From: Chitinophagales bacterium
GTDB lineage: Bacteria > Bacteroidota > Bacteroidia > Chitinophagales > Saprospiraceae
Reading direction: 5' to 3'
Length of the DNA: 64,000 nucleotides
Assembly (NCBI GenBank): GCA_013297745.1
Contig: JAAFIM010000001.1
Location: forward strand, 1-64,000
The position numbers were made by a program, and so were the translations under genes. Of the stretch, positions 2,900-57,525 are shown piece after piece. Within the stretch, counting starts at the first letter, position 1. Every line of letters starts with the position of its first letter. Below the pieces are notes generated by a model. The model was not told the origin of the DNA, did no database searches, and saw only the letters and a list, made by a program, of their open reading frames with translations.

Positions 2900-2986
2900 T
2901 TTTTAGGATTGTTTACGAGTTTGAAAAAATTAGCCAAATCAATTTTAAAAAAAAATTCAAATATCATTTGGCTGGCTGAGTGATAA

Positions 2987-3667
2987 TTAGGCTTTTCCGC
3001 CGCCCATAGCTGCCAACACGTTACCGTAAACTCCGTTCAAAGATTTAAGGTTTTTGTTAAGCAATGACAATTGTTCGCGATAAACTTTGGTGTCTTCCAA
3101 AGAATCAGTGATGCTAGTGATAGCTGAGTTCAACGCACCTACAAATTTGCCTGCACCTTGAGTCAATTTGGTAATTTCGTCAAATTTAGCATCTTTAAGG
3201 CTGTTAAGAGCTGACATATTTTCGCCCATATTTTTAACACCTGCACTGGTTGTTTTCAACTCAGTAACCATCATAGCTTGTTGAGCTTCCAATGGTTTGG
3301 TATCAATTTTTAGGTTTTTCAATGCATCAACCATTACGTTGTTGCCAGCTTTGATAGTGTTTACCAACTCTGCGCCGTCGAAGCTACTTTTGCTACCGCC
3401 GCCTGTGCTTGCATTGGCACCTTCAAAAACATCGCCGTGTTGGTCAAGACCTGGATACAAACGCTCCCAGTAGTAATCTTTGTGTGGAGGCAATACACCC
3501 AACATCAAGAACAAGAACGTTTCAGTCAAAAGACCTACTGTAAGCATCTCGCTCGCAAATGGCCAGCTTTGGATTTTGAACAACGCACCAACCAATACAA
3601 TGGCAGCACCTACACCGATAATTAGGTTTTTAATGTACGCAAAACCTGCTGAATGAACAAAACTCAT
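2987..3667 (-). CDS. gldL: T9SS inner-membrane motor protein GldL/PorL
   Basis: GldL forms the membrane pentamer of the T9SS/gliding motor together with GldM. The 226-aa product has two N-terminal membrane helices, at about residues 10-28 and 38-60. The conserved loop FKIQSWPFA lies between them, and LGVLPPHKDYYWERLYPGLD follows the second helix. The rest is a helical cytoplasmic tail. In this family a Glu in the second helix is implicated in proton flow, and a Glu is present there (LLTETFLFL). It sits between gldK and gldM. The gldK terminator and a 340-bp gap suggest that gldL-gldM may have their own promoter. Confidence 0.95.
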   Translation of the reverse strand: MSFVHSAGFAYIKNLIIGVGAAIVLVGALFKIQSWPFASEMLTVGLLTETFLFLMLGVLPPHKDYYWERLYPGLDQHGDVFEGANASTGGGSKSSFDGAELVNTIKAGNNVMVDALKNLKIDTKPLEAQQAMMVTELKTTSAGVKNMGENMSALNSLKDAKFDEITKLTQGAGKFVGALNSAITSITDSLEDTKVYREQLSLLNKNLKSLNGVYGNVLAAMGGGKA

Positions 3668-4006
3668 AATTTTTTAAGAATTTAAAAAAGGTTAGTAAAA
3701 AAAATAATACAAAAAGGGTTAGTAAAAAAATTGAATCAAATAAAATTTTAACGTGAGTTTATCGTTTGTACATCACTTTATTGTGCTGCATCCTACGAAA
3801 AACAGCGTAATAATAAGGCAAGTTTTTTAATTGGTTACAACTTATAATAAAAAAAAATGCAAAAAATTAAAAAAAATTAAAAAATGTCTTATTTTTGGTA
3901 AAAAAACGTGGTTTTTAGACCATTTTAGAACTTTTTTCATTTAAAAAATAAACGTACCACTCCTATACGAATGATACGTTTATTGACAGTTAGCGGAGTA
4001 TTTATA
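3668..4006. other. Gap between gldK and gldL
   Basis: This 339-bp gap is very AT-rich and holds no convincing gene. The 14-base string GGTTAGTAAAAAAA occurs twice just upstream of gldL (about 3690-3730). The gldK terminator is at the far end. No clear TAnnTTTG box was found for gldL. Confidence 0.6.
3946..3983 (-). terminator. Terminator after gldK
   Basis: An ATAAACGTA arm pairs with TACGTTTAT around a loop of about 16 nt, and a T run follows on the minus strand. It lies directly beyond the gldK stop. Confidence 0.6.
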
Positions 4007-5281
4007 TTATTTGAAATCATTCATAGAACGACCCAAGAAAGTCAGCACACAACGGAAGCCGATATAAGATTTGGTTGTATCTTGAAATTCCCAATGGCGT
4101 GTACCATTTTGCAAATAGTAAGCTACATCTTTCCAAGAACCACCGCGAATTACTTTGCGTTTCCAAGCTGTGGGGTCTTCTTCTTGAGCATCAAAACGAA
4201 TATCTGGTTGCAAATCGTGCAAGAAAGGATAAGCATTTTCATAATAAGCAGAAGAAGTCCATTCAGATGCGTTGCCAGCCATATTATACAAACCATAATC
4301 ATTGGGGAAATAAGCATCAGCGCGCACAGTATACAAGCCACCATCAGCAGGATAATCACCACGTCCAGGCTTAAAGTTAGCCAACAAACAACCTTTTGCG
4401 TTGCGGGTATAATAACCACCCCAAGGATAAGGCGCTAAATCGTGTCCGCCTCTTGCCGCATATTCCCATTCGTGTTCGGTAGGCAAACGGAAGTCTTCTG
4501 ATGACAGTTCTTCAAACTCATTCCACAAATTGGTTCTCCAATAAGAGAATGCCATAGCCTGTTTCCAAGCCACACCTACTACAGGATAATCATCAAAAGC
4601 AGGATGCCAAAAATAGTTGCGTGTCATTGGCTCATTATAAGAATAGGTAAAATCGCGTACCCAAACCAAAGTATCGGGATAAATACGTATTTTATCTTTC
4701 TTAATATAATCAGCGCGGTTGTGTTTTTCTTGAGTAGTGCGGTTATTATCGGATTTCCAATCAAAATCTTTGGCTGCATTTTTCCAGTCATACCATTGAT
4801 AATCAAAATCTAATAAACGGATATCCAAATTTCTACGTCCGCCCAATTGTTCTGAACCTTGGAAGAACATATCTTTCAACTCGCCGCTTGGTTCCCAATC
4901 CAATTCTTGTTCCCAATCTACCAAAGTAAGACCAGCACCAGTTTCATCTTCGCGAGTGTGCCCCATTTTTGTATGAGCTATAGAGTCGCGTACCCATTCC
5001 ACAAATTGGCGATATTCATTATTAGTAATCTCGGTATCATCCATAAAAAATCCCTGTATAGAGATTTGTTTGGCGCGTTGTACCAAAGAATGGTTTACAT
5101 CTTGGTCGCTTGGTCCTATATGCAAGGTTCCAGAAGGAATATATTGCATACCATAAGGCGTGATAGGATTCCAAGTAGGTCTATCCTGCGCTCCTATGAG
5201 CTGCCCCCCTTCGCGTTTTCCGCAAGACGCCAACGCTAAAGTTGCGCCTAATACAATGGCTAAATTTTTATTTTTTTTCAT
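4007..5281 (-). CDS. gldK: T9SS lipoprotein GldK/PorK
   Basis: GldK is an outer-membrane lipoprotein of the T9SS with a formylglycine-generating-enzyme (SUMF1) fold. It builds the periplasmic ring with GldN. The start was set at 5281 because the product then begins MKKNKNLAIVLGATLALASC, a lipoprotein signal with an LASC lipobox. A longer reading to 5350 would bury this signal. The 424-aa protein carries SUMF1 landmarks: IQGFFMDDTEITNNEYRQF near the N-terminus, PVVGVAWKQA and RLPTEHEWEYAARGG in the middle, NMAGNASEWTSS later, and GFRCVLTF at the end. It heads the gldKLMN block and follows a PorP/SprF-like gene. Confidence 0.95.
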   Translation of the reverse strand: MKKNKNLAIVLGATLALASCGKREGGQLIGAQDRPTWNPITPYGMQYIPSGTLHIGPSDQDVNHSLVQRAKQISIQGFFMDDTEITNNEYRQFVEWVRDSIAHTKMGHTREDETGAGLTLVDWEQELDWEPSGELKDMFFQGSEQLGGRRNLDIRLLDFDYQWYDWKNAAKDFDWKSDNNRTTQEKHNRADYIKKDKIRIYPDTLVWVRDFTYSYNEPMTRNYFWHPAFDDYPVVGVAWKQAMAFSYWRTNLWNEFEELSSEDFRLPTEHEWEYAARGGHDLAPYPWGGYYTRNAKGCLLANFKPGRGDYPADGGLYTVRADAYFPNDYGLYNMAGNASEWTSSAYYENAYPFLHDLQPDIRFDAQEEDPTAWKRKVIRGGSWKDVAYYLQNGTRHWEFQDTTKSYIGFRCVLTFLGRSMNDFK

Positions 5282-5528
5282 TTTCGCAGCCGTGTTTAAC
5301 GTTTTTTTTCTTAATGGGATATTAAAGGCATTTATAAAAATAGAGAACAATGGCAGCTGTTCCCGTTTTTAGTTGTTGATATTTGATGCTGTTTAACGCC
5401 AAGTATTTTTTATTATTGTGTAAGCCCTGACTTTTTTTAAGTTTTTTTTAAGTTTTTTTATCAATCAGGGAAAAAAATAGCTTTTTGGCGCGTCAGGCTA
5501 CTTTTTGGGTAACAGAAAACATTATGTT

Positions 5529-6512
5529 TTATAAAAATCTTGGGTTGTAGATAATTTTTTGTGGAATTTTTTTACCCATTTCTTTGCGCAAATTGTAATT
5601 TAATACCACTTCGTGCGAGCCTGCATTCAAATTGCGCAAAACGTTCAATGATATATCATAAGCATAACCCAGCATGATGTTTTTGTTTATCTGCAAACCT
5701 GCCGACAAAATAAACGCATCTTGAGTGAAATCGCTATAGCCTCTATAGCCCAAGCCCAATAAGAATTGCTGCTTATACCGCGCCAAAATGGATGCTTCTG
5801 GTTGTATTTTTATCAAATCTGTTTTCAATAAAATAGAAGGTTGCAATTGCCACTCTGCAGCCAAGTCCCAAGTATATTGACCTTGCAAAAAGTATGCCCT
5901 TTTGTATCTGACCTGCAAAATTTGTGCAGACACCAATTCAACCAACGGTTCATTCAAATTGATAGCTGCCGCACCCAACTGAAATTTTTCCCCTTTGAGA
6001 TACAATCCCGCTTCTACCCCTACAGTCATACCTTGAGAGCGCGCATCAATCAAAATCCCATCATTGTGGTTAAATGTAGAGCCTTCATAATTGCCTTCTG
6101 GGGTACGAAATAAACTACCATCAAAACTTTTTTGGGATAATCTTCCTCCCGCACCTATAGATAAAGTGGTTTTATCCGATAAGGAAAGCATATAATTATA
6201 AGCCAAACGAATTTGGCTGTTGGTTTCTGCTCCCAATTGGTCGCGCTCCAAGCCAAGCCCAAACCCACTGCGCAAATATGGCACAGGTGTATGGATATTA
6301 GCTTGATAAGTTAGCGGACTAGCTGCTAAATTAACCCATTGTTTGCGGAAAACTGCAGTTGCGCTTACAGAACCATCCAAACCTGCATAAGCCGTATTGT
6401 AGTTATATGGATTAAGCATAAATAGACTATATTGAGCTGGCTGCTGGGCTTGTATAGTAGGCAGATAATAGGCTGCGCAAATAAAGGCGCAAATGTAAGT
6501 TTTCCAATTCAT
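5529..6512 (-). CDS. PorP/SprF family T9SS outer-membrane protein
   Basis: Members of this family are outer-membrane beta-barrels that act with the T9SS, often anchoring particular secreted proteins. The 327-aa product has a signal peptide (about residues 1-22, ending IQAQ). The family's opening QPAQYSLFMLNPYNYNTAYAG follows, and then FRKQWVNLAASPLTY. Alternating beta-strand patterns run to the end. It lies upstream of gldK on the same strand with a 247-bp gap. This order is common in Bacteroidota, so it may be the PorP partner of the core machine. I cannot tell PorP from one of several SprF paralogs. Confidence 0.9.
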   Translation of the reverse strand: MNWKTYICAFICAAYYLPTIQAQQPAQYSLFMLNPYNYNTAYAGLDGSVSATAVFRKQWVNLAASPLTYQANIHTPVPYLRSGFGLGLERDQLGAETNSQIRLAYNYMLSLSDKTTLSIGAGGRLSQKSFDGSLFRTPEGNYEGSTFNHNDGILIDARSQGMTVGVEAGLYLKGEKFQLGAAAINLNEPLVELVSAQILQVRYKRAYFLQGQYTWDLAAEWQLQPSILLKTDLIKIQPEASILARYKQQFLLGLGYRGYSDFTQDAFILSAGLQINKNIMLGYAYDISLNVLRNLNAGSHEVVLNYNLRKEMGKKIPQKIIYNPRFL

Positions 6513-8499: not shown

Positions 8500-9288
8500 T
8501 TAAAATTTTGGGAAAAAGGAAAGTGGAAAATTATTTTGCTGCCACCAGCGTATAGTCATACCATTTTCAGACGCGGCTTCAAATGCTAAATTGCCCTCTT
8601 GGGTACGATTTACATTACTCGTCCAACTATTTTTTATAGGGTTAGTCCAAGCACTAGCACATTGTTCTATGATTTCATCAAGAGTTAAATCATTAGGAAA
8701 AAAAGTATGCCCGTCAGGAACATCTTTAAGTATATGTCTCTCAATAATCGGTGGGAGAGCTTTTATACCATTTGTATTTTTTCTATATTGAGCAATTTTT
8801 ATAGTGCAATCAATGGGCAAGTTCAAAACCCCAAAGGAGTTAATATTAGCAGGGTTATTGCGCAAATCCGCAATAGAAACTTTGACATTGTTCGCATCTT
8901 TAATAAGTATATGGCTTTCATTTTGCCCACTTTCATTTGAATGATAAAATTTATCGCCTTCTTCTTGGTAATGCCCACCCTGCCCTGCTTCACCTATTAA
9001 GTGTTCTATAATTTTACCATTTTTATGAGTTTTTATATAGTGCAATATCTCCAAAAAAGCATAACTTTTTCTTGAATTACTGACTTTATTAGAGCAATTT
9101 CGCCAAATTTCCAATAGCGCAAAGAGTTTTTCTTTCTCCGCCTTTTTGTTTGTGCATAAAACTGCAAAAGCCTCCAAAGCATTGGGAAATTCAGCATCAA
9201 AACGCTGTTGTGTGGCTGCATCCCAAGTTGTTTGTAGAAATTTTTTATCTTTTCCAGAAACAAACGCAATAATTTTATTAAACCCCAT
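8500..9288 (-). CDS. Protein with C-terminal bacterial EndoU-like nuclease domain
   Basis: The last 80 residues of this 262-aa protein fit the bacterial EndoU RNase pattern found at the ends of polymorphic and contact-dependent toxins. They show RHIL (His185), GHTFFPNDLT (His194, FFP at 196-198), then DEIIEQCASAWTNP, a variable stretch, and NGMTIRWW...FFP near the C-terminus. Two His residues in these spots are the expected catalytic pair. The N-terminal 180 residues are unrecognised and carry no signal peptide or CTD, so any export route is unclear. The gene follows ccmE by 16 bp and precedes two co-directional genes. It could be a toxin with downstream immunity or a housekeeping RNase-like protein. 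The domain call is from motif spacing, not a search. Confidence 0.65.
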   Translation of the reverse strand: MGFNKIIAFVSGKDKKFLQTTWDAATQQRFDAEFPNALEAFAVLCTNKKAEKEKLFALLEIWRNCSNKVSNSRKSYAFLEILHYIKTHKNGKIIEHLIGEAGQGGHYQEEGDKFYHSNESGQNESHILIKDANNVKVSIADLRNNPANINSFGVLNLPIDCTIKIAQYRKNTNGIKALPPIIERHILKDVPDGHTFFPNDLTLDEIIEQCASAWTNPIKNSWTSNVNRTQEGNLAFEAASENGMTIRWWQQNNFPLSFFPKF

Positions 9289-10368: not shown

Positions 10369-10376
10369 TATCTTTG
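10369..10376 (+). promoter_or_regulatory. -7 box TATCTTTG
   Basis: TATCTTTG lies 25 bp before the ATG at 10401. It shows that an upstream in-frame start at 10374 would fall inside the promoter and is not used. Confidence 0.7.
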
Positions 10377-10400
10377 CGCCCAAATTTTATAATCTTTGAT

Positions 10401-12185
10401 ATGTCTACTACCAAAAATGTGAAACCCGCACAAAACGGGAAAATTTTAGCTCGTATTTTGGCTTTGGCCAAACCCTACAAATGGGTTTTTATCTTAGCTG
10501 CTACTTTATCTGTGGTATTAGCTCCTGTAGCTATTTTGCGCCCTTTTTTGGTGCAACTGACTGTGGATAAGCACATTCTCAACAACGATTATGACGGTTT
10601 GTTATTGATGATAGCGATTTTATTCGGAATTTTATTTTTGGAAGGTTTGCTAGCTTATATATTTTCGTACTCTACTAGTTGGCTGGGTCAATCTATCATC
10701 CGCGATACAAGGGTTAAAGTATTTCGCCACATCAACAGCCTGCGCTTGTCTTATTTTGACCGCACTCCTATTGGTACGAATATGACCCGCACCATTTCCG
10801 ACTTAGAAACGATAAACACAGTGTTTTCGGAGGGGATTATTACCATAATAGCCGATATTTTAACCCTAATTTTTGTGTTGGGGATTATGTTTTACACCAG
10901 TTGGTCGCTAACTTTGGTCTGTTTATCCATATTCCCATTATTATTAATCGCAAGTTATTGGTTTAAAGAAGCGGTCAAAAAATCTTACGAGCGCGTCCGC
11001 AATCTGGTGGCTACGCTCAACGCATTTTTACAGGAGCGCATTTCTGGTATGCGTTTGGTGCAAATTTTCAACGCTGAAGAGCAAGAAAAACAAAAATTTG
11101 AAAAAATAAGCCGCGATTATACCCGCGCCAATTTGGATTCTATATTCCCTTACGCTGTATTTTTTCCTTTGGTAGAAATTTTCTCAGCAGCAAGTTTGGG
11201 TTTAATGGTTTGGTACGGCGCGAGCGGCGTATTGGATGGGGATGTAACCCTTGGGGTTTTGGTAGCTTTTCCTTTGTATTTGGGGCAATTATTCCGCCCG
11301 ATAAGAATGTTAGCGGATAAATTCAACTCTTTGCAAATGGGCTTGGTGGCTGCCAATCGCGTTTTTGAACTATTGGATAGCCGCGAACAGATAAGCAACG
11401 AGGGTAAAATTATCCCTACCCAACTCAAAGGCGATGTTGTGTTCAAAAATGTATTTTTTTCCTACCAACAGGACAAAAAAGCCGAAGAGATTGAAGATTG
11501 GATTTTACAAAATATCAACTTCCGACTTCCTGAAGGGCAAACTTTGGCTATAGTCGGCAGCACAGGCGCGGGCAAATCTACCATTATCAACATTTTGAGC
11601 CGTTTTTATGAAATCCACAAGGGCGAAATTTCTATAGGCAGCGAAAATTTGAAATCTTTTGAACTTTATGCTTTGCGGAGGCGAATTGCTGTAGTTTTGC
11701 AAGATGTGTTTTTGTTTTCGGGTACAGTTTTTGAAAATATAAGCCTCAACGACCCCAATATCAGCAAAGAACAGGTTATAGCAGCAGCCCAATTGATAGG
11801 CGCACACGATTATATTATCCGCTTGCCTGAAGGTTATGATTACCAAGTGAGAGAACGCGGCGCAACCCTTTCTATGGGGCAAAGGCAGTTGATTTCTTTC
11901 GTGCGGGCTTTAGTGTTCAACCCCGATATTTTGGTATTGGACGAAGCCACTTCAGCCATAGACCCAGAAACCGAAGCGATTATCCAGCACGCCATAGAAA
12001 AATTGATAAATCGCCGCACTTCTATCATTATTGCGCACAGACTTTCCACGATACAACACGCGCATCAAGTTATGGTTTTGGAAAAAGGCCAAATCGCCGA
12101 AATCGGCAGCCCAACCGAATTGATGCAGTTGGAAAATGGACATTATCGCCAATTGGTGGAAGCCAGCCAGCAAGAGGCGGTGTAA
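10401..12185 (+). CDS. ABC exporter, MsbA-like fused half-transporter
   Basis: This is a 594-aa homodimer-type ABC exporter. The N-terminal region (about residues 25-325) is a six-helix transmembrane domain, including SLRLSYFDRTPIGTNMTRT, as in MsbA/MdlB-like proteins. The C-terminal nucleotide-binding domain has Walker A (GSTGAGKST), the Q-loop (VLQDVFLFSG), a signature motif LSMGQRQL, Walker B (ILVLDEATS) and the H-loop (IIAHRLST). All catalytic elements are present. The substrate may be lipid or drug and cannot be decided here. The start at 10401 follows the promoter box at 10369. The end is 85 bp before a T9SS cargo gene. Confidence 0.95.
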   Translation: MSTTKNVKPAQNGKILARILALAKPYKWVFILAATLSVVLAPVAILRPFLVQLTVDKHILNNDYDGLLLMIAILFGILFLEGLLAYIFSYSTSWLGQSIIRDTRVKVFRHINSLRLSYFDRTPIGTNMTRTISDLETINTVFSEGIITIIADILTLIFVLGIMFYTSWSLTLVCLSIFPLLLIASYWFKEAVKKSYERVRNLVATLNAFLQERISGMRLVQIFNAEEQEKQKFEKISRDYTRANLDSIFPYAVFFPLVEIFSAASLGLMVWYGASGVLDGDVTLGVLVAFPLYLGQLFRPIRMLADKFNSLQMGLVAANRVFELLDSREQISNEGKIIPTQLKGDVVFKNVFFSYQQDKKAEEIEDWILQNINFRLPEGQTLAIVGSTGAGKSTIINILSRFYEIHKGEISIGSENLKSFELYALRRRIAVVLQDVFLFSGTVFENISLNDPNISKEQVIAAAQLIGAHDYIIRLPEGYDYQVRERGATLSMGQRQLISFVRALVFNPDILVLDEATSAIDPETEAIIQHAIEKLINRRTSIIIAHRLSTIQHAHQVMVLEKGQIAEIGSPTELMQLENGHYRQLVEASQQEAV

Positions 12186-23449: not shown

Positions 23450-24934
23450 TTATTTGGTTGGATAAAAAGTTTTGGCATCAGCAATTTTTTCGTTTCCGCT
23501 CAATGATTCTGCCCCTGTAAGTTGTTCATTAGTTATATCAGCTTGTGTTTTAGGTATCAAAAATTCTATCCAAAAACTTTTGCTGCAAAGCCCTCTACAA
23601 GTTTTGGAAGGGCTATTGATTCTAGCATTATATTTTTCTGGATCTGTCAACAAATTAGGCATAGGTTTTATTTCCAACTGGGAGAAAGCAAAAGCAGTTT
23701 CTTCTATAACTTGTTCGGGTGTCCAGTTATTAGGAAAAAAAGTAGAGGATTCTTTTTTCCAGCCAAACATATATTTGTTTGCAGGATTTAAAGATATTGC
23801 TACTTTGCCCGCGCCAAATTGGATTTGATAATTTTGTGCTTCTATTGAAAACATTTGAAAATAACCTTTATAAGGTTTATCGTCTTGAGGTGGAGAAGGA
23901 ACAGATGAATTTAGCATAGCATCGCCAGTGAAATAATTAGTGGCGATTGTTGGTGGTGAAGACTTTAAATGCTGATGGTGATGCAAACCTTTGGGTTTTA
24001 TTGCTGTTCTTTCTGCATTAAAAAGATATTCTCCCCTGAAAACATGATTTTGAAGCGAAGTTTGTTGTTTTAAATTATACAGCGTTTGTATAAATTTAGC
24101 ATTATTTTTTTGTTCCAATAAATAACCAACACTGCCCCACGTTTCTATTAAATTAGCATTTTTCCAAATTTGAGGGTTTTTGGCAAAACATTTTAAAAAA
24201 TCTTCTATGTCTTGAGTCTTTTTTTTGTACTCTTGCAAACCTAGTCCTTGGGCTTCTTGCAAATTCACTTCATAGAAATCTTGCCATTCGTCCACAAGTA
24301 TCAACAAATCGGTAATTTCTGTTTGTATTTCAATTGTATTTACATTTTGATAAATCTTAATTTTAGTAAATTGACTGGCAATTTTTCTAAGATTATCTTT
24401 TAACCAATTTTCTACGTTTTTTTGCTCCTCTTCATCCCCTCCCACCACTTCATTGTTCTCTATTTCTTCCCCTTCATCTGCCAATTGTGATTGTAAGGTT
24501 TCAAATTCCCTTTCGTCAATAGGCTTGCAATCCACTTGAAACAAAATACTAGGTAAAATTTTCAGCAAACTCTTATCTATTTTATCAATTTTAGTTTTTC
24601 CTGTTCCTTTGGCTATATCCAAATTTATAATTGTTCTGCCATCAGAAGTTTTGCCATTAAAATAAGCCAAACCTAAAACTCCAAGCGGTTCTTTTATAAT
24701 CTCTTTGACAAAAGGTTTCCAAAAAGTGGTTGGACGGCCAATTATAAGCAACGGAAAATCTTGATTTTTGTCGGTAAAAGAGAAATCCCCATTTAATATA
24801 AAAAAAGTTGGCTTTTCTATAGAAGTAGATTTTTCCAATTGCTTTATCATTGGCTTAACATTTTGTTTGAATTTAACAAAAGATAAATTTGATAAAAAGC
24901 TAGGATTTTTAGTAAAGAATTTTGGTATTTTCAT
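23450..24934 (-). CDS. 494-aa protein with C-terminal EndoU-like fold lacking the His residues
   Basis: The last 110 residues follow the same layout as the EndoU-like domain at 8500-9288: NKYMFGWKKESSTFFPNNW (FFP at 399-401), TPEQVIEETAFAFSQ, a variable stretch, then FWIEFLI and a terminal FYP. The two His positions are Lys/Tyr and Ser here, so it is probably not a standard EndoU nuclease. A GLHHHQHL motif (316-323) precedes the domain and could be an alternative active site. The N-terminal 300 residues, with an acidic stretch at about 160-180 (EGEEIENNEVVGGDEEEQ), are unrecognised. There is no signal peptide. It lies 34 bp after a GT2 gene and 14 bp before the 217-aa gene. The fold likeness is by eye. 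Confidence 0.6.
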   Translation of the reverse strand: MKIPKFFTKNPSFLSNLSFVKFKQNVKPMIKQLEKSTSIEKPTFFILNGDFSFTDKNQDFPLLIIGRPTTFWKPFVKEIIKEPLGVLGLAYFNGKTSDGRTIINLDIAKGTGKTKIDKIDKSLLKILPSILFQVDCKPIDEREFETLQSQLADEGEEIENNEVVGGDEEEQKNVENWLKDNLRKIASQFTKIKIYQNVNTIEIQTEITDLLILVDEWQDFYEVNLQEAQGLGLQEYKKKTQDIEDFLKCFAKNPQIWKNANLIETWGSVGYLLEQKNNAKFIQTLYNLKQQTSLQNHVFRGEYLFNAERTAIKPKGLHHHQHLKSSPPTIATNYFTGDAMLNSSVPSPPQDDKPYKGYFQMFSIEAQNYQIQFGAGKVAISLNPANKYMFGWKKESSTFFPNNWTPEQVIEETAFAFSQLEIKPMPNLLTDPEKYNARINSPSKTCRGLCSKSFWIEFLIPKTQADITNEQLTGAESLSGNEKIADAKTFYPTK

Positions 24935-52028: not shown

Positions 52029-53573
52029 CTATCTGTTTCTGCCATATTTTTCGTGGCTCGACACCCAGTCGGACGAAGAAATAGCACAAGCAAGCGAAAT
52101 TTCACCAGCCAAAACCACCCCAGCTATAATTTCAGCCAATTTATTGACTCTATCACGGCCAGCACAACCCAATATCTTAAGCGATTCTTGTTGCGTAGCC
52201 AAGCCCACACCACCACCGTAAGTAGCGATAATTAACGAAGGGATGGTAATAGAAAAGTACAAATCTCCTTCTTTGGTCAATTCGCTATACACCAAGGCTG
52301 CTGATGATTCGGCTACATTGGCTACATCTTGGCCAGTGGCGATAAACATAGCCGTGATACCGTTGGCTGAATGCAAACCATTGTTGTTGGCGCCTGACAT
52401 CAACGAACCTATATTGGAAATACCATAATGATGCGCCAAAGCTGCTGGTTCTACCCGCATGTGTTGTACCAATACATCGCGCTTAAAGGTAATTTCTGCT
52501 GTTACACGTTTGCCGCGCGTACGCATGATATTGACTTGAGACGCTTTTTTGTCGGTAGCAAAATTAGATTCCAAATAAAAATGCTTAATTGGATTTTCTT
52601 TGTACGTTTCCAATATCCAGCTACAAGCAGCAAAAGTCGCTCGCCCAACCATATTTTGACCAGCTGCATCGCCAGTAGAATAATTGAAACGCATAAAAGC
52701 GAAACGATTGGATAAATATGGGTCAATATATTGCAAACGAGCCACTGTAGAAGTAGCTTCAGCTTCTTGGGCGATTTGTTTGAAATTGGCTTTAATCCAA
52801 TCCACAAAATCACGCGCTGCTCTTGCATCTTCAAACTCAAACACTGGTGCGCGCTGCATAGCATCGCGTTGTACTGTACATTTTGCGCCTCCACAAAGAT
52901 TGACAATTTTGATACCCCGATTGTAAGAAGCTACCAATGTACCTTCACTAGTTGCCATTGGGATTAAAAATTCGCCTTTTGCATATTCGCCATTTACCAA
53001 CAAAGGTCCTGCTATGCCCAACGGCACTTGTGCCACACCCACAAAATGCTCACAATTGCCATTCGTGATATGAGGGTCAAAAGAATAACTAGCTATGTGC
53101 TTAAGTTCTACCCCTGTTTGTTCGGTTATGAATTGTTGGCGTGTTTTGATAGCCTGCTCAGAATAATCATCGGTTTTATCGCGAGGGATAACCACATTGT
53201 TTGTTCTGTCCGCAGAAATACCATCTTCTACTTTCAAAACCAAAGCCCCAAAAGGTTCAGCTTCAAAATGAATTTCTATCTCATACTTACCCGCTGCCAA
53301 ATGCGCTACTTTACAATGTACTTCTACAGTTTTTTTGAGTGGAAAATCTACTGGACTAGCTGCCGTGATAGCACCCGCAGCAATCTGGTCGTCACCCAAA
53401 ACTACAGTAACATCAGACAAAGGCACATTATTGCCACCTATTTTGATGGCGCTAAGTGCATTCATTTTAGCATCGCTTAATCTATTTTTAAGCGCAAATT
53501 TAACTCCACCATCTACATTTTTGAGGCTGTTGAAAGTGTAAAGTTGTTTCAATATCAGCGTTGGGATTTGCAT
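52029..53573 (-). CDS. Hydroxymethylglutaryl-CoA reductase
   Basis: Reduces HMG-CoA to mevalonate, the committed step of the mevalonate route to isoprenoids. In this 514-aa protein the catalytic region starts at about residue 130. VGVAQVPLGIAGPLLV matches the ENVIG region. MATSEGTLVAS holds the catalytic Glu (Glu210). The DAMGMN-like motif reads GDAAGQNM (Asp302). LESNFATDKKASQVN holds the catalytic Lys, and SSHEKYGRN carries the C-terminal His (His507). The N-terminal 115 residues are a soluble beta-rich domain (VPLSDVTVVLGDDQIAAGA, KYEIEIHFEAEPFGALVLKVED) not found in the classical enzyme. There is no membrane anchor. The start is the only good ATG. Confidence 0.95.
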   Translation of the reverse strand: MQIPTLILKQLYTFNSLKNVDGGVKFALKNRLSDAKMNALSAIKIGGNNVPLSDVTVVLGDDQIAAGAITAASPVDFPLKKTVEVHCKVAHLAAGKYEIEIHFEAEPFGALVLKVEDGISADRTNNVVIPRDKTDDYSEQAIKTRQQFITEQTGVELKHIASYSFDPHITNGNCEHFVGVAQVPLGIAGPLLVNGEYAKGEFLIPMATSEGTLVASYNRGIKIVNLCGGAKCTVQRDAMQRAPVFEFEDARAARDFVDWIKANFKQIAQEAEATSTVARLQYIDPYLSNRFAFMRFNYSTGDAAGQNMVGRATFAACSWILETYKENPIKHFYLESNFATDKKASQVNIMRTRGKRVTAEITFKRDVLVQHMRVEPAALAHHYGISNIGSLMSGANNNGLHSANGITAMFIATGQDVANVAESSAALVYSELTKEGDLYFSITIPSLIIATYGGGVGLATQQESLKILGCAGRDRVNKLAEIIAGVVLAGEISLACAISSSDWVSSHEKYGRNR

Positions 53574-53969
53574 AATTGATTTTTTTTGAATTGAAAAATT
53601 TTGAAAATGTGCGCAAATATCTAATTATTTTTATTCTTATTTACACAAAAGCAATTTTTTTTCAATTTTTTTTTTGACTTAGGAACTTTCAAACCTATTT
53701 TTAAGTTTAAGACTTTGAAATTTGCAAAAAGTAACCGAATAAAACCCAAACGGTAAAGTTTCTAAAAAAATTTAGAAAAAAAACTCGGCTCGGAACTTTA
53801 GCTAAGGCTCGATAGTTAATGGGTTCGTAACTGCTTAATAAAGCAACGCCAAAAAAAAATTAATAAAAAATTTTCTGGTCGGGAACTTTAGCTAAGTCTT
53901 TATAGTTAATGGGTTTGTAACTGCTTAATAAAGCAAATCCAATTCTAAAAAAATTAAAATATCCATATC
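53574..53969. other. Gap between HMG-CoA reductase and small ORF
   Basis: A 396-bp AT-rich region. It has homopolymer tracts up to about 53790 and then the duplicated 60-bp segment. No gene is seen. Confidence 0.6.
53791..53940. repeat. Duplicated 60-bp segment, 90-bp spacing
   Basis: 53791-53850 and 53881-53940 match at most positions. The shared core is GGAACTTTAGCTAAG, then TATAGTTAATGGGTT/CGATAGTTAATGGGTT, then GTAACTGCTTAATAAAGCAA. Each copy contains an AGTTA...TAACT hairpin and a GCTTAATAAAGC hairpin. The second copy ends 29 bp before the ATG of the 41-aa frame. Confidence 0.85.
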
Positions 53970-54095
53970 ATGAATTTCTTTGATAAAAAATCTCAATTTA
54001 TTTCTCTACAGATTATTGCGCGTTTTGAACAACGCCAAGATTCTCGCGCTATTGATATTCAGCGTGAAGAGCAAGATTTTATTATCAAAAAATAA
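53970..54095 (+). CDS. Possible 41-aa protein
   Basis: ATG at 53970, stop at 54093-54095. The product is soluble and charged (MNFFDKKSQFISLQIIARFE, then QRQDSRAIDIQREEQDF, IIKK). Codon choice looks like coding sequence, and the position after a duplicated, hairpin-rich leader suggests regulated translation. No family is known. Confidence 0.35.
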   Translation: MNFFDKKSQFISLQIIARFEQRQDSRAIDIQREEQDFIIKK

Positions 54096-54104
54096 GCTGC
54101 CCCG

Positions 54105-54145
54105 TAAATTGTAGGCAGCGCACAAAGCGGCTTGCCGACAATTTA
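54105..54145. other. Hairpin upstream of tRNA array
   Basis: TAAATTGTAGGCAGCGC pairs with GCGGCTTGCCGACAATTTA with a few mismatches around a short ACAAA loop. It may end the small-ORF transcript or be part of a small RNA. Confidence 0.5.
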
Positions 54146-54209
54146 TAACTTTATTTATCCAAATATCGTTTTTGTATTCGTACAAAAATAGAAGTTATAC
54201 TTTTTCGTT

Positions 54210-54246
54210 ATGCTGCCGAGTGTCCAACTTGGTGGCATTTTTTATT
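54210..54246 (+). terminator. Terminator before tRNA array
   Basis: ATGCTGCCGAGT and ACTTGGTGGCAT pair throughout, counting G-T pairs, around a 5-nt loop, followed by TTTTTTATTTT. It ends a transcript just ahead of the first tRNA. Confidence 0.65.
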
Positions 54247-54269
54247 TTATAAATTATTGATAATCAAAC

Positions 54270-54344
54270 AGTAGTGTAGCGCAGAGGTAGCGCGTTCGTC
54301 TGTCTAACGAAGGGTCGCGGGTTCGAATCCCGTCATTACTTCCA
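54270..54344 (+). tRNA. tRNA-Asp (GTC)
   Basis: Acceptor AGTAGTG/CATTACT, D-arm GCGC..GCGC, anticodon stem TTCGT/ACGAA with loop CTGTCTA (anticodon GTC), T-arm GCGGGTTCGAATCCCGT. CCA is encoded. The discriminator is T, not the usual G for Asp. It is the first gene of an eleven-tRNA array. Confidence 0.9.
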
Positions 54345-54349
54345 CAAAT

Positions 54350-54423
54350 GAAGATATAGCTAAATGGTTTAAGGCACTTGTCTGATACACAAGCGATTAC
54401 AGGTTCGACTCCTGTTATCTTCA
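54350..54423 (+). tRNA. tRNA-Ile (GAT), copy 1
   Basis: Acceptor GAAGATA/TATCTTC, anticodon stem CTTGT/ACAAG with loop CTGATAC (anticodon GAT), T-arm ACAGGTTCGACTCCTGT, discriminator A, no encoded CCA. The D-stem is weak. The acceptor differs from the usual bacterial tRNA-Ile. It is identical to the gene at 54513-54586. Confidence 0.85.
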
Positions 54424-54429
54424 CTTTTT

Positions 54430-54507
54430 AGGAACGTAGTTTAATTGGACAAAAACGCGAAACTCCAAATCTCGGCAATGTGGGTTCGACTCCTGCCGTT
54501 CCTGCCA
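54430..54507 (+). tRNA. tRNA-Trp (CCA)
   Basis: Acceptor AGGAACG/CGTTCCT is perfect. Anticodon loop CTCCAAA gives CCA. Discriminator G and an encoded CCA. The anticodon stem CGAAA/TCTCG has one A-C mismatch, and the T-stem uses two G-T pairs. Confidence 0.85.
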
Positions 54508-54512
54508 CAAAT

Positions 54513-54586
54513 GAAGATATAGCTAAATGGTTTAAGGCACTTGTCTGATACACAAGCGATTACAGGTTCGACTCCTGTTATCTTCA
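54513..54586 (+). tRNA. tRNA-Ile (GAT), copy 2
   Basis: Identical over its whole length to the gene at 54350-54423, including the lack of an encoded CCA. The duplicate lies on the other side of the tRNA-Trp gene. Confidence 0.85.
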
Positions 54587-54595
54587 CTTTTTTAT

Positions 54596-54671
54596 GGAAA
54601 TGTAGCTCAGTTGGTAGAGCGTTGGTCTGAAAAACCAAAGGTCGCTGGTTCAATCCCTGCCGTTTCCACCA
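54596..54671 (+). tRNA. tRNA-Phe (GAA)
   Basis: Acceptor GGAAATG/CGTTTCC, D-arm GCTC..GAGC, anticodon stem TTGGT/ACCAA with loop CTGAAAA (GAA), discriminator A, encoded CCA. The T-stem GCTGG/CCTGC has a central T-T mismatch. Confidence 0.92.
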
Positions 54672-54698
54672 TATTCTAAACTTTTTTTTTCTAATTAT

Positions 54699-54773
54699 GG
54701 AAACGTGGCGCAACTGGAACAGCGCAACTCTCTACGAAGGAGTAGGTTATAGGTTCGAATCCTATCGTTTTCA
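54699..54773 (+). tRNA. tRNA-Arg (ACG)
   Basis: Acceptor GGAAACG/CGTTTTC, with G-T pairing, D-arm GCGC..GCGC, anticodon stem ACTCT/GGAGT with loop CTACGAA (ACG, read as ICG after modification), T-arm ATAGGTTCGAATCCTAT. No encoded CCA. Confidence 0.9.
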
Positions 54774-54781
54774 CTTATGCT

Positions 54782-54854
54782 GCACATATAGCTCAGTAGG
54801 AAGAGCATCGGACTTTTAATCCGAGGGTCGCAAGTTCGAACCTTGCTATGCGCA
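54782..54854 (+). tRNA. tRNA-Lys (TTT)
   Basis: Acceptor GCACATA/TATGCGC with one A-C mismatch, D-arm GCTC..GAGC, anticodon stem TCGGA/TCCGA with loop CTTTTAA (TTT), T-arm GCAAGTTCGAACCTTGC, discriminator A. No encoded CCA. Confidence 0.9.
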
Positions 54855-54861
54855 CATTTTT

Positions 54862-54935
54862 AGCCTGATGATGTAATGGTAACATAACAGTCTTTGAAGC
54901 TGTGTTTGTAGGTTCAAATCCTGCTCGGGCTACCA
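54862..54935 (+). tRNA. tRNA-Gln (TTG)
   Basis: Acceptor AGCCTGA/TCGGGCT, with a T-G pair, anticodon stem ACAGT/GCTGT with loop CTTTGAA (TTG), T-arm containing TAGGTTCAAATCCTGC, discriminator A, encoded CCA. Confidence 0.88.
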
Positions 54936-54957
54936 AGTTTGAATGATTTTATTTTAT

Positions 54958-55032
54958 GGTCTATTGGTGTAGTGGTCAGCACATTGTCCTTTCAAGGCAG
55001 TAGCACCAGTTCAATTCTGGTATAGACTACCA
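54958..55032 (+). tRNA. tRNA-Glu (TTC), copy 1
   Basis: Acceptor GGTCTAT/ATAGACT, with G-T at the end pair, anticodon stem TTGTC/GGCAG with loop CTTTCAA (TTC), T-arm ACCAGTTCAATTCTGGT, discriminator A, encoded CCA. Confidence 0.9.
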
Positions 55033-55054
55033 TTTTTTACTTATTTTTACACAA

Positions 55055-55129
55055 GGTCTATTGGTGTAGTGGTCAGCACATTGTCCTTTCAAGGCAGTAG
55101 CACCAGTTCAATTCTGGTATAGACTTCCA
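55055..55129 (+). tRNA. tRNA-Glu (TTC), copy 2
   Basis: Identical to copy 1 through the last acceptor base. The discriminator is T where copy 1 has A, then CCA. It lies 22 bp after copy 1, so this is a recent tandem duplicate. Confidence 0.9.
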
Positions 55130-55217
55130 TTTTTTAATATCGCGCGGCAAGACATTTCCAATCTTTGAAATTTTTTGCGAAAAATGCAAAAAAAACTTTT
55201 TTATATCAAAAAAATGC

Positions 55218-55225
55218 TACCTTTG
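55218..55225 (+). promoter_or_regulatory. -7 box TACCTTTG for the last tRNA
   Basis: Exact TAnnTTTG 23 bp before the final tRNA, implying that this tRNA is transcribed separately from the rest of the array. Confidence 0.75.
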
Positions 55226-55248
55226 CCCCGCGATTGAGAAAATAATAA

Positions 55249-55322
55249 GCCTTAGTAACCCAACTGGTAGAGGTACACGTCTCAGAAGCGTGCCAGTGTG
55301 AGTTCGAATCTCATCTGAGGCA
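55249..55322 (+). tRNA. tRNA with Leu anticodon (CAG) but class I shape
   Basis: Acceptor GCCTTAG/CTGAGGC, with one T-G pair, anticodon stem CACGT/GCGTG with loop CTCAGAA (CAG), variable loop of only 5 nt (CCAGT), T-arm GTGAGTTCGAATCTCAT, discriminator A. Bacterial tRNA-Leu normally has a long variable arm, which is absent. No encoded CCA. Confidence 0.85.
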
Positions 55323-55355
55323 CTTAAGTTTTGGTTTTTAATGGGTGAATGATAA

Positions 55356-55397
55356 AACGCTGGAGTTAGCTTTATTGCTAGTCCAGCGTTTTTTTTA
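55356..55397. terminator. Terminator after the tRNA array
   Basis: AACGCTGGA and TCCAGCGTT arms, with an inner TAGC/GCTA pairing, followed by a run of Ts. It lies between the last tRNA and the convergent penicillin acylase gene. Confidence 0.85.
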
Positions 55398-55416: not shown

Positions 55417-57525
55417 TTATTTTTTTACAGGATTATACACCTTGACCGCATTTTTCAAAATCCAAGATTTATCCAAACTCATTTTTTTCATCTCGCGCTT
55501 GTTGAACATTTCCAACTCGTCTTTATAATTTTCGCAAGTGCGGGTCAATTCAAAAGGCAACAAGGTTTCTATAGTTTCTGCGCCTTTGGAGTTGAATTTT
55601 ACAAAGTGGATGTAAGTATCGGCAAAATCCATTTTATACTTTCCGTTTTTGACGTGCGTGCCGAAAGCGGGCGAAAGTGCGTCGGGATAACCGCTAATTG
55701 GGTAAAATTTGCCATTTCTATAATGCGAAAGTACTTGATTTACAGGCACTTTTATAGAATTATGATGTTTTAGTAAAAAAGCGGACGCTTGTTCTATGCC
55801 AGCTACAAAATCGGCTTCAGTCGCACCATCCAAACCCAAAATAAAGGTTTCGTCCCCCAAACCGTATTTTTTCAGCACATTTTCTATAGAAATCATAAAC
55901 AAAGTAGCCGAAGTATTTTCGGGGCTTGCATCGCCATCCCATTCTTGTACAATTTTTATCGCTTCCTCTATATGCGGATAATTTTCTGCTTTTATAGAAT
56001 AAAGCAACGACAGCGTTTTGAAAAAGTGGGTGTTTTTAGAGATTTTTAAATCAAATTTCAAACTTTTAAACTCTTCAAAGCTGAATTTTTCCCCTCCTTT
56101 GGCTGCCAGCATCTCCATAAACCGCGTTGAGCGGCTATTATCGCCAGGGCGTAAATCCACTTCGGGGATGGTTTGGGCTCTTGGAAAATTCTCTTCAGCG
56201 CAAGTGGCGTTTGTGGGCGTATTATTCATATTAAACACATAACCGCAAGTTGGATTTTTGACCTGTGGCAATTCGTCTTGAGTATGAAATTCTGTCCAGA
56301 TATTTTCGGAAACATTACCGTTTAAAATATCGCTATAATCATAATTTTTATTCCTTTTGGGCAGCCGAGCGTTAGAAATATAAAATATATTATCGTTTTT
56401 ATCCGCATAAACGATATTAAACATATTCAAAGAGTTCAAATCCAAAGCCGCTTTCCATTCTTCATAATTAGCCGCTTTATTCATTTTATAATACTGCTCC
56501 CCTACTTTTACATTGCTAAAAGAGGGGCTTTTTATCGCGTAAAATTCACCTTTGGGCGACTTCAAAACCAAACCGTGTTGGGATTTATACGCCATTTTGC
56601 GCACGGGGATAACTATTTTTCCAATTTTAACCCTTAATTTTATCGGCTTTTTTTCCAATTTCAGGTATTTATCGTCCAATTTGTAATACAATTTTTTGCT
56701 GGGATGCATTTCCAACTTATAAATATCCACTTGGTCAACATAATTATAGGTTTGTCCCCAACCCAAATTTTCATTATTGCCGATAAAAACGCTCGTTCCG
56801 CCGTGAAATAGCGCGCCCGTCATATTCAAACCCTGCTCGCTGCATAAATGCGCCTCATAAAATGCAAAAGGTCCCTCTACGAAAAAATGCGGATTCATAC
56901 ACAAATAGGTTTTTCCATCCGCTGTTTTTTTGGAGTTGAAAGCGTAAGCGTTTGAACCAAATCCATTTTTTTGTGTAGTTTTATCATAAGCCCCAGAGAC
57001 GATATTTTGGATAGCTTCTGGACTTCCCGAAAGTGCAGCGAAAGCGATTAGATAAATTCTCACCAAATCTTTACTTTCTATAGGAAAAACGTTGGGGCGC
57101 GCCACTTCTTTGGGATGCGCTTTGGCATAAGCGTTAATTCCTTGCACATATCCGTTGATATACAACAGAAAATCAGCGTCCAAAGTATTAAAAAAACTAT
57201 CTACTGTTTGTTTGGCATCAATAGCTTTAACAAAAAAATCAAACGCCGCGCCCTCTTTGCCTTTCTGAATACCAGCTTTGGTCTTAGTCAAAATCAACAT
57301 ATCTTGCAAAATAGGAAAAGCATCTTCGCTATTCGCCCAAGCCAAACCAAAAGCAACTTCTGCATCTGTTTTGGCAAAAATATGCGCTACGCCCCATTCA
57401 TCTCTGGCTATCGTAACTTGTTGTGGGTCAATGGTTTGTGGGTATATTTTTTGCCCGTATAGATTGACAACTACACACAAAAAAAGCAGCAGGCTGCCAC
57501 TTTGTATAAAATTTTTTATTTGCAT
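55417..57525 (-). CDS. Penicillin acylase family Ntn-hydrolase
   Basis: The 702-aa precursor of a periplasmic amide hydrolase such as penicillin or acyl-homoserine-lactone acylase. A signal peptide (about 1-24) leads. The alpha-chain opens VTIARDEWGVAHIFAKTDAEVAFGL. The self-cleavage site and N-terminal nucleophile are NGFG/SNAYAF (Ser191). The beta-chain has FHGGTSVFIGNNENLGWGQTYNYVDQVDIY, NDNIFYIS, NMNNTPTNA and RPGDNSRSTRFMEML. The length suits the family. The substrate cannot be told; quorum-signal or beta-lactam degradation are only possibilities. Confidence 0.93.
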   Translation of the reverse strand: MQIKNFIQSGSLLLFLCVVVNLYGQKIYPQTIDPQQVTIARDEWGVAHIFAKTDAEVAFGLAWANSEDAFPILQDMLILTKTKAGIQKGKEGAAFDFFVKAIDAKQTVDSFFNTLDADFLLYINGYVQGINAYAKAHPKEVARPNVFPIESKDLVRIYLIAFAALSGSPEAIQNIVSGAYDKTTQKNGFGSNAYAFNSKKTADGKTYLCMNPHFFVEGPFAFYEAHLCSEQGLNMTGALFHGGTSVFIGNNENLGWGQTYNYVDQVDIYKLEMHPSKKLYYKLDDKYLKLEKKPIKLRVKIGKIVIPVRKMAYKSQHGLVLKSPKGEFYAIKSPSFSNVKVGEQYYKMNKAANYEEWKAALDLNSLNMFNIVYADKNDNIFYISNARLPKRNKNYDYSDILNGNVSENIWTEFHTQDELPQVKNPTCGYVFNMNNTPTNATCAEENFPRAQTIPEVDLRPGDNSRSTRFMEMLAAKGGEKFSFEEFKSLKFDLKISKNTHFFKTLSLLYSIKAENYPHIEEAIKIVQEWDGDASPENTSATLFMISIENVLKKYGLGDETFILGLDGATEADFVAGIEQASAFLLKHHNSIKVPVNQVLSHYRNGKFYPISGYPDALSPAFGTHVKNGKYKMDFADTYIHFVKFNSKGAETIETLLPFELTRTCENYKDELEMFNKREMKKMSLDKSWILKNAVKVYNPVKK

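Follow-up and report, generated by a model that had tools for sequence, protein, structure and literature searches.

Blocks of transfer RNA (tRNA) genes, some of them in the company of RNA-repair genes, have been described from several kinds of genome. The trn operon of Anabaena is reported to stay silent until translation stress and to be co-repressed with rtcB by TrcR (PMC10272220), and tRNA array units are described from Mycobacterium chromosomes, prophages and plasmids (PMC5966550). A TROVE gene is reported in 20 of 29 archaeal tRNA gene clusters (PMC6333295), some jumbo phages are said to encode a TROVE protein besides tRNAs (PMC7824862), and the Salmonella rsr-yrlBA-rtcBA RNA repair operon is reported to respond to cleaved tRNAs (PMC7790460). 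For phage tRNAs, evasion of anticodon nucleases has been proposed from loop mutations (PMC10264068). Here we analyse an array of tRNA genes at positions 54270-55323 of a 64,000-nucleotide (nt) stretch from a Chitinophagales bacterium, hereafter the window (GCA_013297745.1, contig JAAFIM010000001.1), which forms the start of a contig of 242,744 bases in an assembly of 4.28 Mb, 154 contigs and 96% completeness. We favour, at a probability of about one half, the reading that this locus is a phage-type reserve tRNA operon, domesticated on a chromosome of the Bacteroidota and kept in case of tRNA damage or translation stress.

Eleven tRNA genes, all on the plus strand, are found by ARAGORN and Rfam alike; ARAGORN folds each into a cloverleaf, and the Rfam tRNA model scores them at 50.2-73.1 bits against a cut-off of 29, which all of them pass. 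An earlier note on this DNA, made from the letters alone, had reported eleven tRNAs within 1.05 kb; both programs return this count, and the identities are those that the note had listed, namely Asp, Ile, Trp, Ile, Phe, Arg (here with the anticodon ACG), Lys, Gln, two Glu and a CAG tRNA. The array opens with tRNA-Asp(GUC) (54270-54344), which encodes CCA, carries U73 and has the loop CTGTCTA (CTGTCAC in the host), followed by a first tRNA-Ile(GAU) (54350-54424, no CCA), a tRNA-Trp with the anticodon CCA (54430-54507, CCA end encoded) and a second tRNA-Ile(GAU) (54513-54587) that repeats the first exactly. The second Ile copy lies in a duplicated block of 111 nt, 54482-54592, which is 95% identical to 54319-54429. 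There follow tRNA-Phe(GAA) (54596-54671, CCA encoded), tRNA-Arg(ACG) (54699-54774) and tRNA-Lys(UUU) (54782-54855), the last two without CCA, and then tRNA-Gln(UUG) (54862-54935) and two tRNA-Glu(UUC) genes (54958-55032 and 55055-55129), all three with CCA, the Glu copies differing solely at position 73, where the A of the first is U in the second. The last gene, at 55249-55323, is a class-I tRNA-Leu(CAG) with a short variable loop, a CCCAA-type D-arm, A73 and no CCA. The stem mismatches that the earlier note had pointed out are visible on the ARAGORN cloverleafs (A/C in the anticodon stem of Trp, T/T in the T-stem of Phe, A/C in the acceptor stem of Lys), and U33 and a normal anticodon loop are found in 11 of the 11 tRNAs.

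Across the 4.28 Mb of the genome we obtained 57 tRNA matches, a lower bound given that 150 of 298 candidates were scored and the assembly is 96% complete. As 11 of these matches lie within 1.05 kb, chance clustering is not an issue. The locus thus shares with tRNA array units a high number and density of tRNA genes outside the housekeeping set, with host genes present for seven isotypes. The threshold for an array unit is 20 or more tRNA genes, and with its 11 the window locus is a small array and not an array unit in the strict sense.

The array is an accessory set that is redundant with a separate housekeeping set. Asp, Trp, Phe, Arg(ACG), Lys, Gln and Glu tRNA genes of the genome's own are present elsewhere in it. 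For comparison we used 38 distinct non-array tRNA sequences from fetched loci, a lower bound on the host set that includes no Ile. The best identity of each array gene to any of these 38 is 0.60-0.72, and for Asp, Trp, Glu and the CAG gene the closest host tRNA is of another isotype, in line with the earlier impression that the genes do not resemble the usual chromosomal tRNAs. Among the seven isotypes whose anticodon loops could be compared with host isoacceptors, Asp, Arg, Gln and Glu differ, and Trp, Phe and Lys are identical. The earlier note had also treated the lack of CCA in five of the eleven genes (both Ile, Arg, Lys and CAG) as anomalous. While the count is right, the anomaly is rejected: 30 of the 38 host tRNAs also lack CCA, so that its absence is the house style of this genome and no sign of foreign origin, and the array is if anything richer in encoded CCA than the host set (6 of 11 against 8 of 38; one-sided Fisher p 0.04). 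Elsewhere in the genome, a 95-nt tRNA at C70:51059-51152 (L069) has a long variable arm yet a GCC (Gly) anticodon.

The gene that ties the array to phages is the last one. It combines a Leu anticodon and a class-I short variable loop with a three-pair D-stem bearing the signature CCCAAYTGGNAGAGG, and it has all the marks of the class-I tRNA-Leu of viral arrays, namely the D-arm TARCCCAAYTGGNAGAGGY, a short variable loop, a Leu anticodon and A73, the latter in keeping with the known identity rules of bacterial leucyl-tRNA synthetase. It is the sole tRNA with a CAG anticodon and no insert among those recovered from the genome. The viral family was assembled from at least 120 stretches found by the D-arm, the fetched ones being analysed with ARAGORN. 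Among the matches listed, 112 of 112 viral tRNAs with this D-arm have a Leu anticodon (UAG, CAA, UAA, CAG, AAG or GAG), 111 of the 112 are short at 74-78 nt, about 108 of the 112 carry A73, and the loose form of the D-arm occurs in 0 of 776 non-Leu tRNAs of the same stretches. A further 93 Leu tRNAs of these stretches, 54 short and 39 long, are without the D-arm. Since the D-arm is confined to Leu tRNAs in the viral stretches, and these are mostly short with A73, we regard the class-I tRNA-Leu as a coherent family. A BLAST search of phages with the window's CAG gene gave, in the best 40 of 193 records, 30 matches annotated as tRNA-Leu and 10 in places without a feature. In the strict form, the D-arm was found among 296 sampled genomes of the phylum solely in the window's own.

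The phage-like character that the earlier note had seen in the array as a whole therefore holds for the CAG gene, a class-I tRNA-Leu of the viral-array type, and is less clear for the other ten. Their best identities are 0.69-0.76 to viral tRNAs and 0.60-0.72 to host tRNAs, from sets of unequal size (981 viral, 38 host), and the best viral match is often of another isotype. No viral contig matched near-exact patterns of the Ile, Glu and Trp genes, and BLAST relatives of the whole array in phages and plasmids were limited to partial similarity to tRNA stretches, no record covering 80% of it.

We then turned to the order, of which 298 genomes were sampled, including relatives of the same family, none marked as belonging to the same genus. 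A relaxed form of the D-arm is present in 17 of these genomes at 20 places, which comprise 15 Leu tRNAs (counting that of the window), three tRNAs that are odd or of Ser type and two sites outside any recognised tRNA. Where wider stretches around D-arm tRNAs were taken, 7 of 8 hold divergent arrays of 5 to 20 tRNAs, the eighth holding only the tRNA-Leu. The neighbours of such arrays are metabolic genes in one relative (G004), an RtcB gene in another (G543) and a TROVE gene in a third (G497). A nearly identical lone class-I tRNA-Leu(CAG) is kept in three species of one genus (G035, G409, G436). Among 159 genomes, 8 have a second, shorter D-arm form, and five of these 8 (G388, G384, G398, G460, G431) are TROVE genomes.

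TROVE itself is present in 33 of the 298 genomes. In 30 TROVE loci, one per genome from 30 of these 33 and reaching about 1.5 kb to either side of the match, at least one tRNA was found in 14 and at least two in 13, against 2 of 30 RtcB loci with a tRNA; together the TROVE loci hold 63 tRNAs in 98 kb, where the tRNA density of the window's genome would predict 1.3. Among wider stretches, which were picked because tRNAs or RtcB lay near, five genomes (G398, G465, G384, G460, G468) show the co-directional order TROVE, 6 to 15 tRNAs, RtcB. Nine Leu tRNAs lie in the 14 stretches to which TROVE had led; 8 of the 9 are short and 8 of the 9 carry the loose CCCAA D-arm, and the window's CAG tRNA shows both features. 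A candidate Y RNA, tRNA-like, about 195 nt long and with an insert that is conserved, lies at L339:4850-5044 and on the minus strand at L084:8250-8475; it occurs both in an array linked to TROVE (G456) and in one with no TROVE close by (G004). One motif of this RNA recurs in L347. The motif GTAGAGATGAGATACTTCG, which is perhaps a Y RNA or a leader element, stands 3' of TROVE genes (L333:3585, L334:4264, L339:5107 and the minus strands of L335 and L336). At L340:769-1242 there is a GOLLD RNA (Rfam RF02032) with a tRNA inside; it lies in a tRNA array, 5' of a TROVE gene.

The association could also be followed across genomes, with counts over the 298 that rest on the searched D-arm form and not on the shorter one. 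TROVE or DUF7788 occurs in 10 of the 13 genomes with a class-I tRNA-Leu of this form and in 29 of the remaining 285 (p 1e-7). Of the eight DUF7788 matches, two fall under the family cut-off and inside TROVE proteins. By genus the figures are 8 of 11 against 15 of 130 (p 2e-5), and without the window's genome 9 of 12 (p 6e-7). TROVE alone gives 5 of 13 against 28 of 285 (p 0.008), and when all 17 genomes with the D-arm pattern are counted, TROVE or DUF7788 is found in 12 of 17 against 27 of 281.

The window locus is flanked by ordinary genes on the minus strand, hydroxymethylglutaryl-CoA (HMG-CoA) reductase at 52029-53573 and a member of the penicillin amidase family at 55417-57525, both assigned by Pfam. 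The earlier note had seen no capsid, integrase or terminase gene, and in a Pfam scan of 51 window proteins, with the remaining, mostly small open reading frames (ORFs) outside the scan, we likewise found no capsid, terminase, integrase or portal family; the phage structural, packaging or integration genes that would mark a prophage tRNA array are thus absent near the array among these proteins. The families present are those of gliding, type IX secretion, glycosyltransferase, citrate synthase and similar. A tRNA array on a chromosome without phage genes has precedent, both in mycobacteria and in the relatives with ordinary or RNA-repair neighbours. PADLOC was run on ten window proteins; the sole protein with matches, at 10374-12185, is an ABC transporter by Pfam, and we do not count these matches as a defence system. 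Two window proteins, at 8500-9288 and 23450-24934 (both minus), gave sub-threshold matches to a bacterial EndoU nuclease family, an assignment for which sequence searches against the PDB gave no support.

An intrinsic terminator lies 3' of the array at 55354-55397 (plus strand), with a hairpin of -22.3 kcal/mol, a z score of -5.9 and a T run; it was missed by a simpler terminator scan. On the 5' side, a terminator scan placed an intrinsic-terminator-like hairpin at 54210-54248 (plus strand), which stops some 20 nt 5' of the first tRNA; a single site of this kind in the region is within chance (mean 1.7 in shuffles). The hairpin forms part of a structured leader at 54080-54270 (-48 kcal/mol, z -4.5), which leaves room for control of the array by read-through. 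Upstream of the leader are two direct repeats of 78 nt, 83% identical (53792-53959, plus strand), that matched no Rfam family. A 41-codon ORF lies at 53971-54096, between the HMG-CoA reductase gene and the array. Within the array, a putative promoter-like stretch precedes the CAG tRNA (55179-55226, plus strand) and has an 86% match at C67:151087-151135. It contains TACCTTTG at 55218-55225, which is similar to the Bacteroidota -7 box TAnnTTTG. With E values up to 1, an Rfam search of the locus returned, besides the eleven tRNAs, only matches under their family cut-offs, YrlA included.

In the explanation that we favour, the array would add a second, divergent set of tRNAs (Asp, Ile, Trp, Phe, Arg, Lys, Gln, Glu and a Leu tRNA for CUG) that replaces housekeeping tRNAs lost to cleavage or stress. 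Its genes would be transcribed and induced under stress; divergent stems and partly altered anticodon loops would spare the products from cutting, and the aminoacyl-tRNA synthetases would still charge them. Help against anticodon nucleases, as the earlier note had suggested, is possible. In favour of the explanation, besides the features described above, are the four RtcB matches of the window's genome, a probable Ro60-like protein beside the genome's second array (below) and the precedent of the stress-responsive Anabaena trn operon. The window array would belong with the class-I tRNA-Leu arrays of the same order, part of which adjoin TROVE (Ro60-like) and RtcB genes.

Several observations weigh against this explanation. 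At the window itself, no RNA-repair gene is present among the 51 scanned proteins, no regulator of the array was identified, and three of the seven comparable anticodon loops are the same as the host's. Neither TROVE nor RtcB stands beside the window array, whose neighbours are the two genes named above, and the genome as a whole gave no TROVE match. In the order, the D-arm also matches three non-Leu or odd tRNAs and two places in no tRNA, 16 of the 30 TROVE loci have no tRNA within reach, and the wider TROVE stretches of G451, G419 and G404 are without one. The 30 RtcB loci with which the TROVE loci were compared form an imperfect control, because they represent the best-scoring type of RtcB and array-adjacent RtcB genes score lower. 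Three of the ten genomes that join a class-I tRNA-Leu with TROVE or DUF7788 belong to one genus, and some of the counted TROVE or DUF7788 matches are broken or weak (internal stops in G385, one stop in G543). Finally, the DUF7788 genes of five other genomes, fetched with 19-20 kb each, had a tRNA beside them in 0 of 5 cases; DUF7788 is thus rejected as a general neighbour of arrays, and its link to them rests on co-occurrence.

The strongest competitor, which we consider rather unlikely, is that the array is what remains of a phage or of some other mobile element, a tRNA block that has outlived its decayed genes and has no present function. Such an origin would account for the viral-type class-I tRNA-Leu, for the stem mismatches in Trp, Phe and Lys, for U73 in Asp and the second Glu, for the duplicated Ile and Glu genes and for the ordinary metabolic genes on both flanks. 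However, all eleven genes still fold and score as tRNAs and the terminator has been kept. The lone class-I tRNA-Leu(CAG) kept by three species of one genus indicates that such genes can be retained, and the recurrence of arrays beside TROVE and RtcB also speaks against a mere remnant.

Plain supplementation of the housekeeping pool, whether for dosage or for codons such as CUG, and unrelated to damage, appears unlikely. It would fit the position of the sole recovered CAG-anticodon tRNA without an insert in the array, directly 3' of the promoter-like stretch. Most array anticodons, however, are already present in the host, and the array sequences have diverged and are not copied from host genes. 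A tRNA-Leu with the anticodon UAG can also read CUG by established wobble, and a second CAG gene could be missing from our list, since that list is a lower bound. A non-ribosomal role, as decoys for tRNA-targeting nucleases, as RNAs bound by a Ro60-like particle or as donors to tRNA-dependent enzymes, is quite improbable: while the TROVE neighbourhood of related arrays and the altered discriminators of Asp and the second Glu would suit it, the normal anticodon loops, U33 in every gene and the good scores favour decoding.

A second array in the same genome, on contig C67, is a stranger find than that of the window. At C67:103940-105862 (L076, minus strand 3941-5863) there are eleven tRNA-like genes whose anticodon arm is interrupted by a shared element. 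A script that sought the best such frame per gene found, in each of them, pairing at seven acceptor and five T-stem positions (with G-U taken as a pair), the sequences differing from gene to gene. The core of the element, TTTTTTGTANAANAAAYCRCAGCA, is exact in 10 of the 11. ARAGORN, run without introns, recognised 0 of the 11, and the Rfam tRNA model placed 5 of the 11 above its cut-off. The exact core occurs ten times in the window's genome and in 0 of the 295 other genomes of the phylum sample. In the GTDB species genomes and the viral contigs, collections from which the window's own genome may be missing in part or whole, it occurs once each (L223, where the stretch looks coding, and L224), with no tRNA visible by eye around either match. 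The element is thus in no tRNA of any other genome searched.

About 1.4 kb from the C67 array lies a gene for a DUF2828/DUF7788 protein, the one such protein in the window's genome, with an RNase D-like gene in between. A profile built from this protein and four relatives aligns with the TROVE profile over 410 columns (probability 96%, E 3e-9), and because of this alignment it is probably a remote Ro60-like protein. An AlphaFold2 model of it, with a mean predicted local distance difference test (pLDDT) score of 53 and no PDB match with an E value below 0.001, was of too low quality to add to this. Inside the array there is a small ORF with a sub-threshold match to S24 peptidases. A prophage around the C67 array is not supported, the 16 distinct proteins of L089 and L090 belonging to metabolic, envelope or unknown families and none to a phage structural one.

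A further tRNA-like place, at C67:121437-121488 on the minus strand (L253, about 2860-3035), carries the element with one mismatch together with 21 nt identical to the 23S ribosomal RNA (rRNA) of relatives, a segment that we take to be helices 69-71; by eye, the place adjoins an apparent ATP synthase gene. The element itself aligns best, in three relatives, at what we take to be helix 65 of the 23S rRNA. Shuffled elements equal this alignment 10 to 70 times per 300, and the likeness is only suggestive. A search of the window's genome for large subunit (LSU) rRNA found none.

Two options may be envisaged for the C67 genes. They could be tRNA genes of a bacterium in which small introns, belonging to neither group I nor group II, separate two halves that RtcB-type repair would join, or they could encode hybrids of tRNA and Y RNA with which a Ro60-like particle is loaded. 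A reserve tRNA system in two parts, with the phage-type array of the window as one part and the interrupted genes of C67, as intron-bearing tRNAs or as hybrids, for the other, is a tentative and somewhat doubtful proposal.

If the favoured explanation of the window array is true, spare tRNA sets would be a chromosomal stress kit in Bacteroidota, beyond a phage weapon or a mobile-element oddity, and in related genomes this kit would be wired to Ro60-like and RtcB RNA repair. The arrays would then make it possible to test directly why tRNA blocks keep company with these RNA-repair proteins across archaea, phages and bacteria, and the short-armed tRNA-Leu family would be a simple marker by which to spot such arrays. 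A literature search of titles and abstract openings, which left most subscription journals uncovered, returned no paper on class-I tRNA-Leu in phages and none on TROVE with tRNA arrays in Bacteroidota. For Bacteroidota, the present analysis contributes the class-I tRNA-Leu as a marker, the gene order TROVE - array - RtcB and a member without adjoining phage or repair genes.

Among known systems, the window array shares its type of class-I tRNA-Leu with phage arrays, for example those of Escherichia phage wV8, Lactobacillus phage LP65 and Rhodococcus phage NiceHouse (74-83% identity over the aligned part); it differs from them in being without phage genes and in its other ten tRNAs, which are unmatched in order and sequence. 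Like the trn operon of Anabaena sp. PCC 7120, it is a long tRNA block beyond the housekeeping set, but that operon is reported to comprise 26 genes on a megaplasmid under a known repressor, TrcR (PMC10272220), whereas the window array has 11 genes on a chromosome and no regulator identified. The Mycobacterium array units are likewise dense tRNA blocks, chromosomal ones among them, from another phylum, and the main text of that report has 0 occurrences of TROVE (PMC5966550). The Salmonella rsr-yrlBA-rtcBA operon is described with Y RNAs and not full tRNA sets, and its genes are not in the window, yet it too brings together a Ro60 protein, tRNA-like RNA and RtcB (PMC7790460). Lastly, while the tRNA clusters with TROVE described by others are archaeal (PMC6333295) and the window array itself is without a TROVE neighbour, the arrays of this order share with those clusters the company of TROVE.

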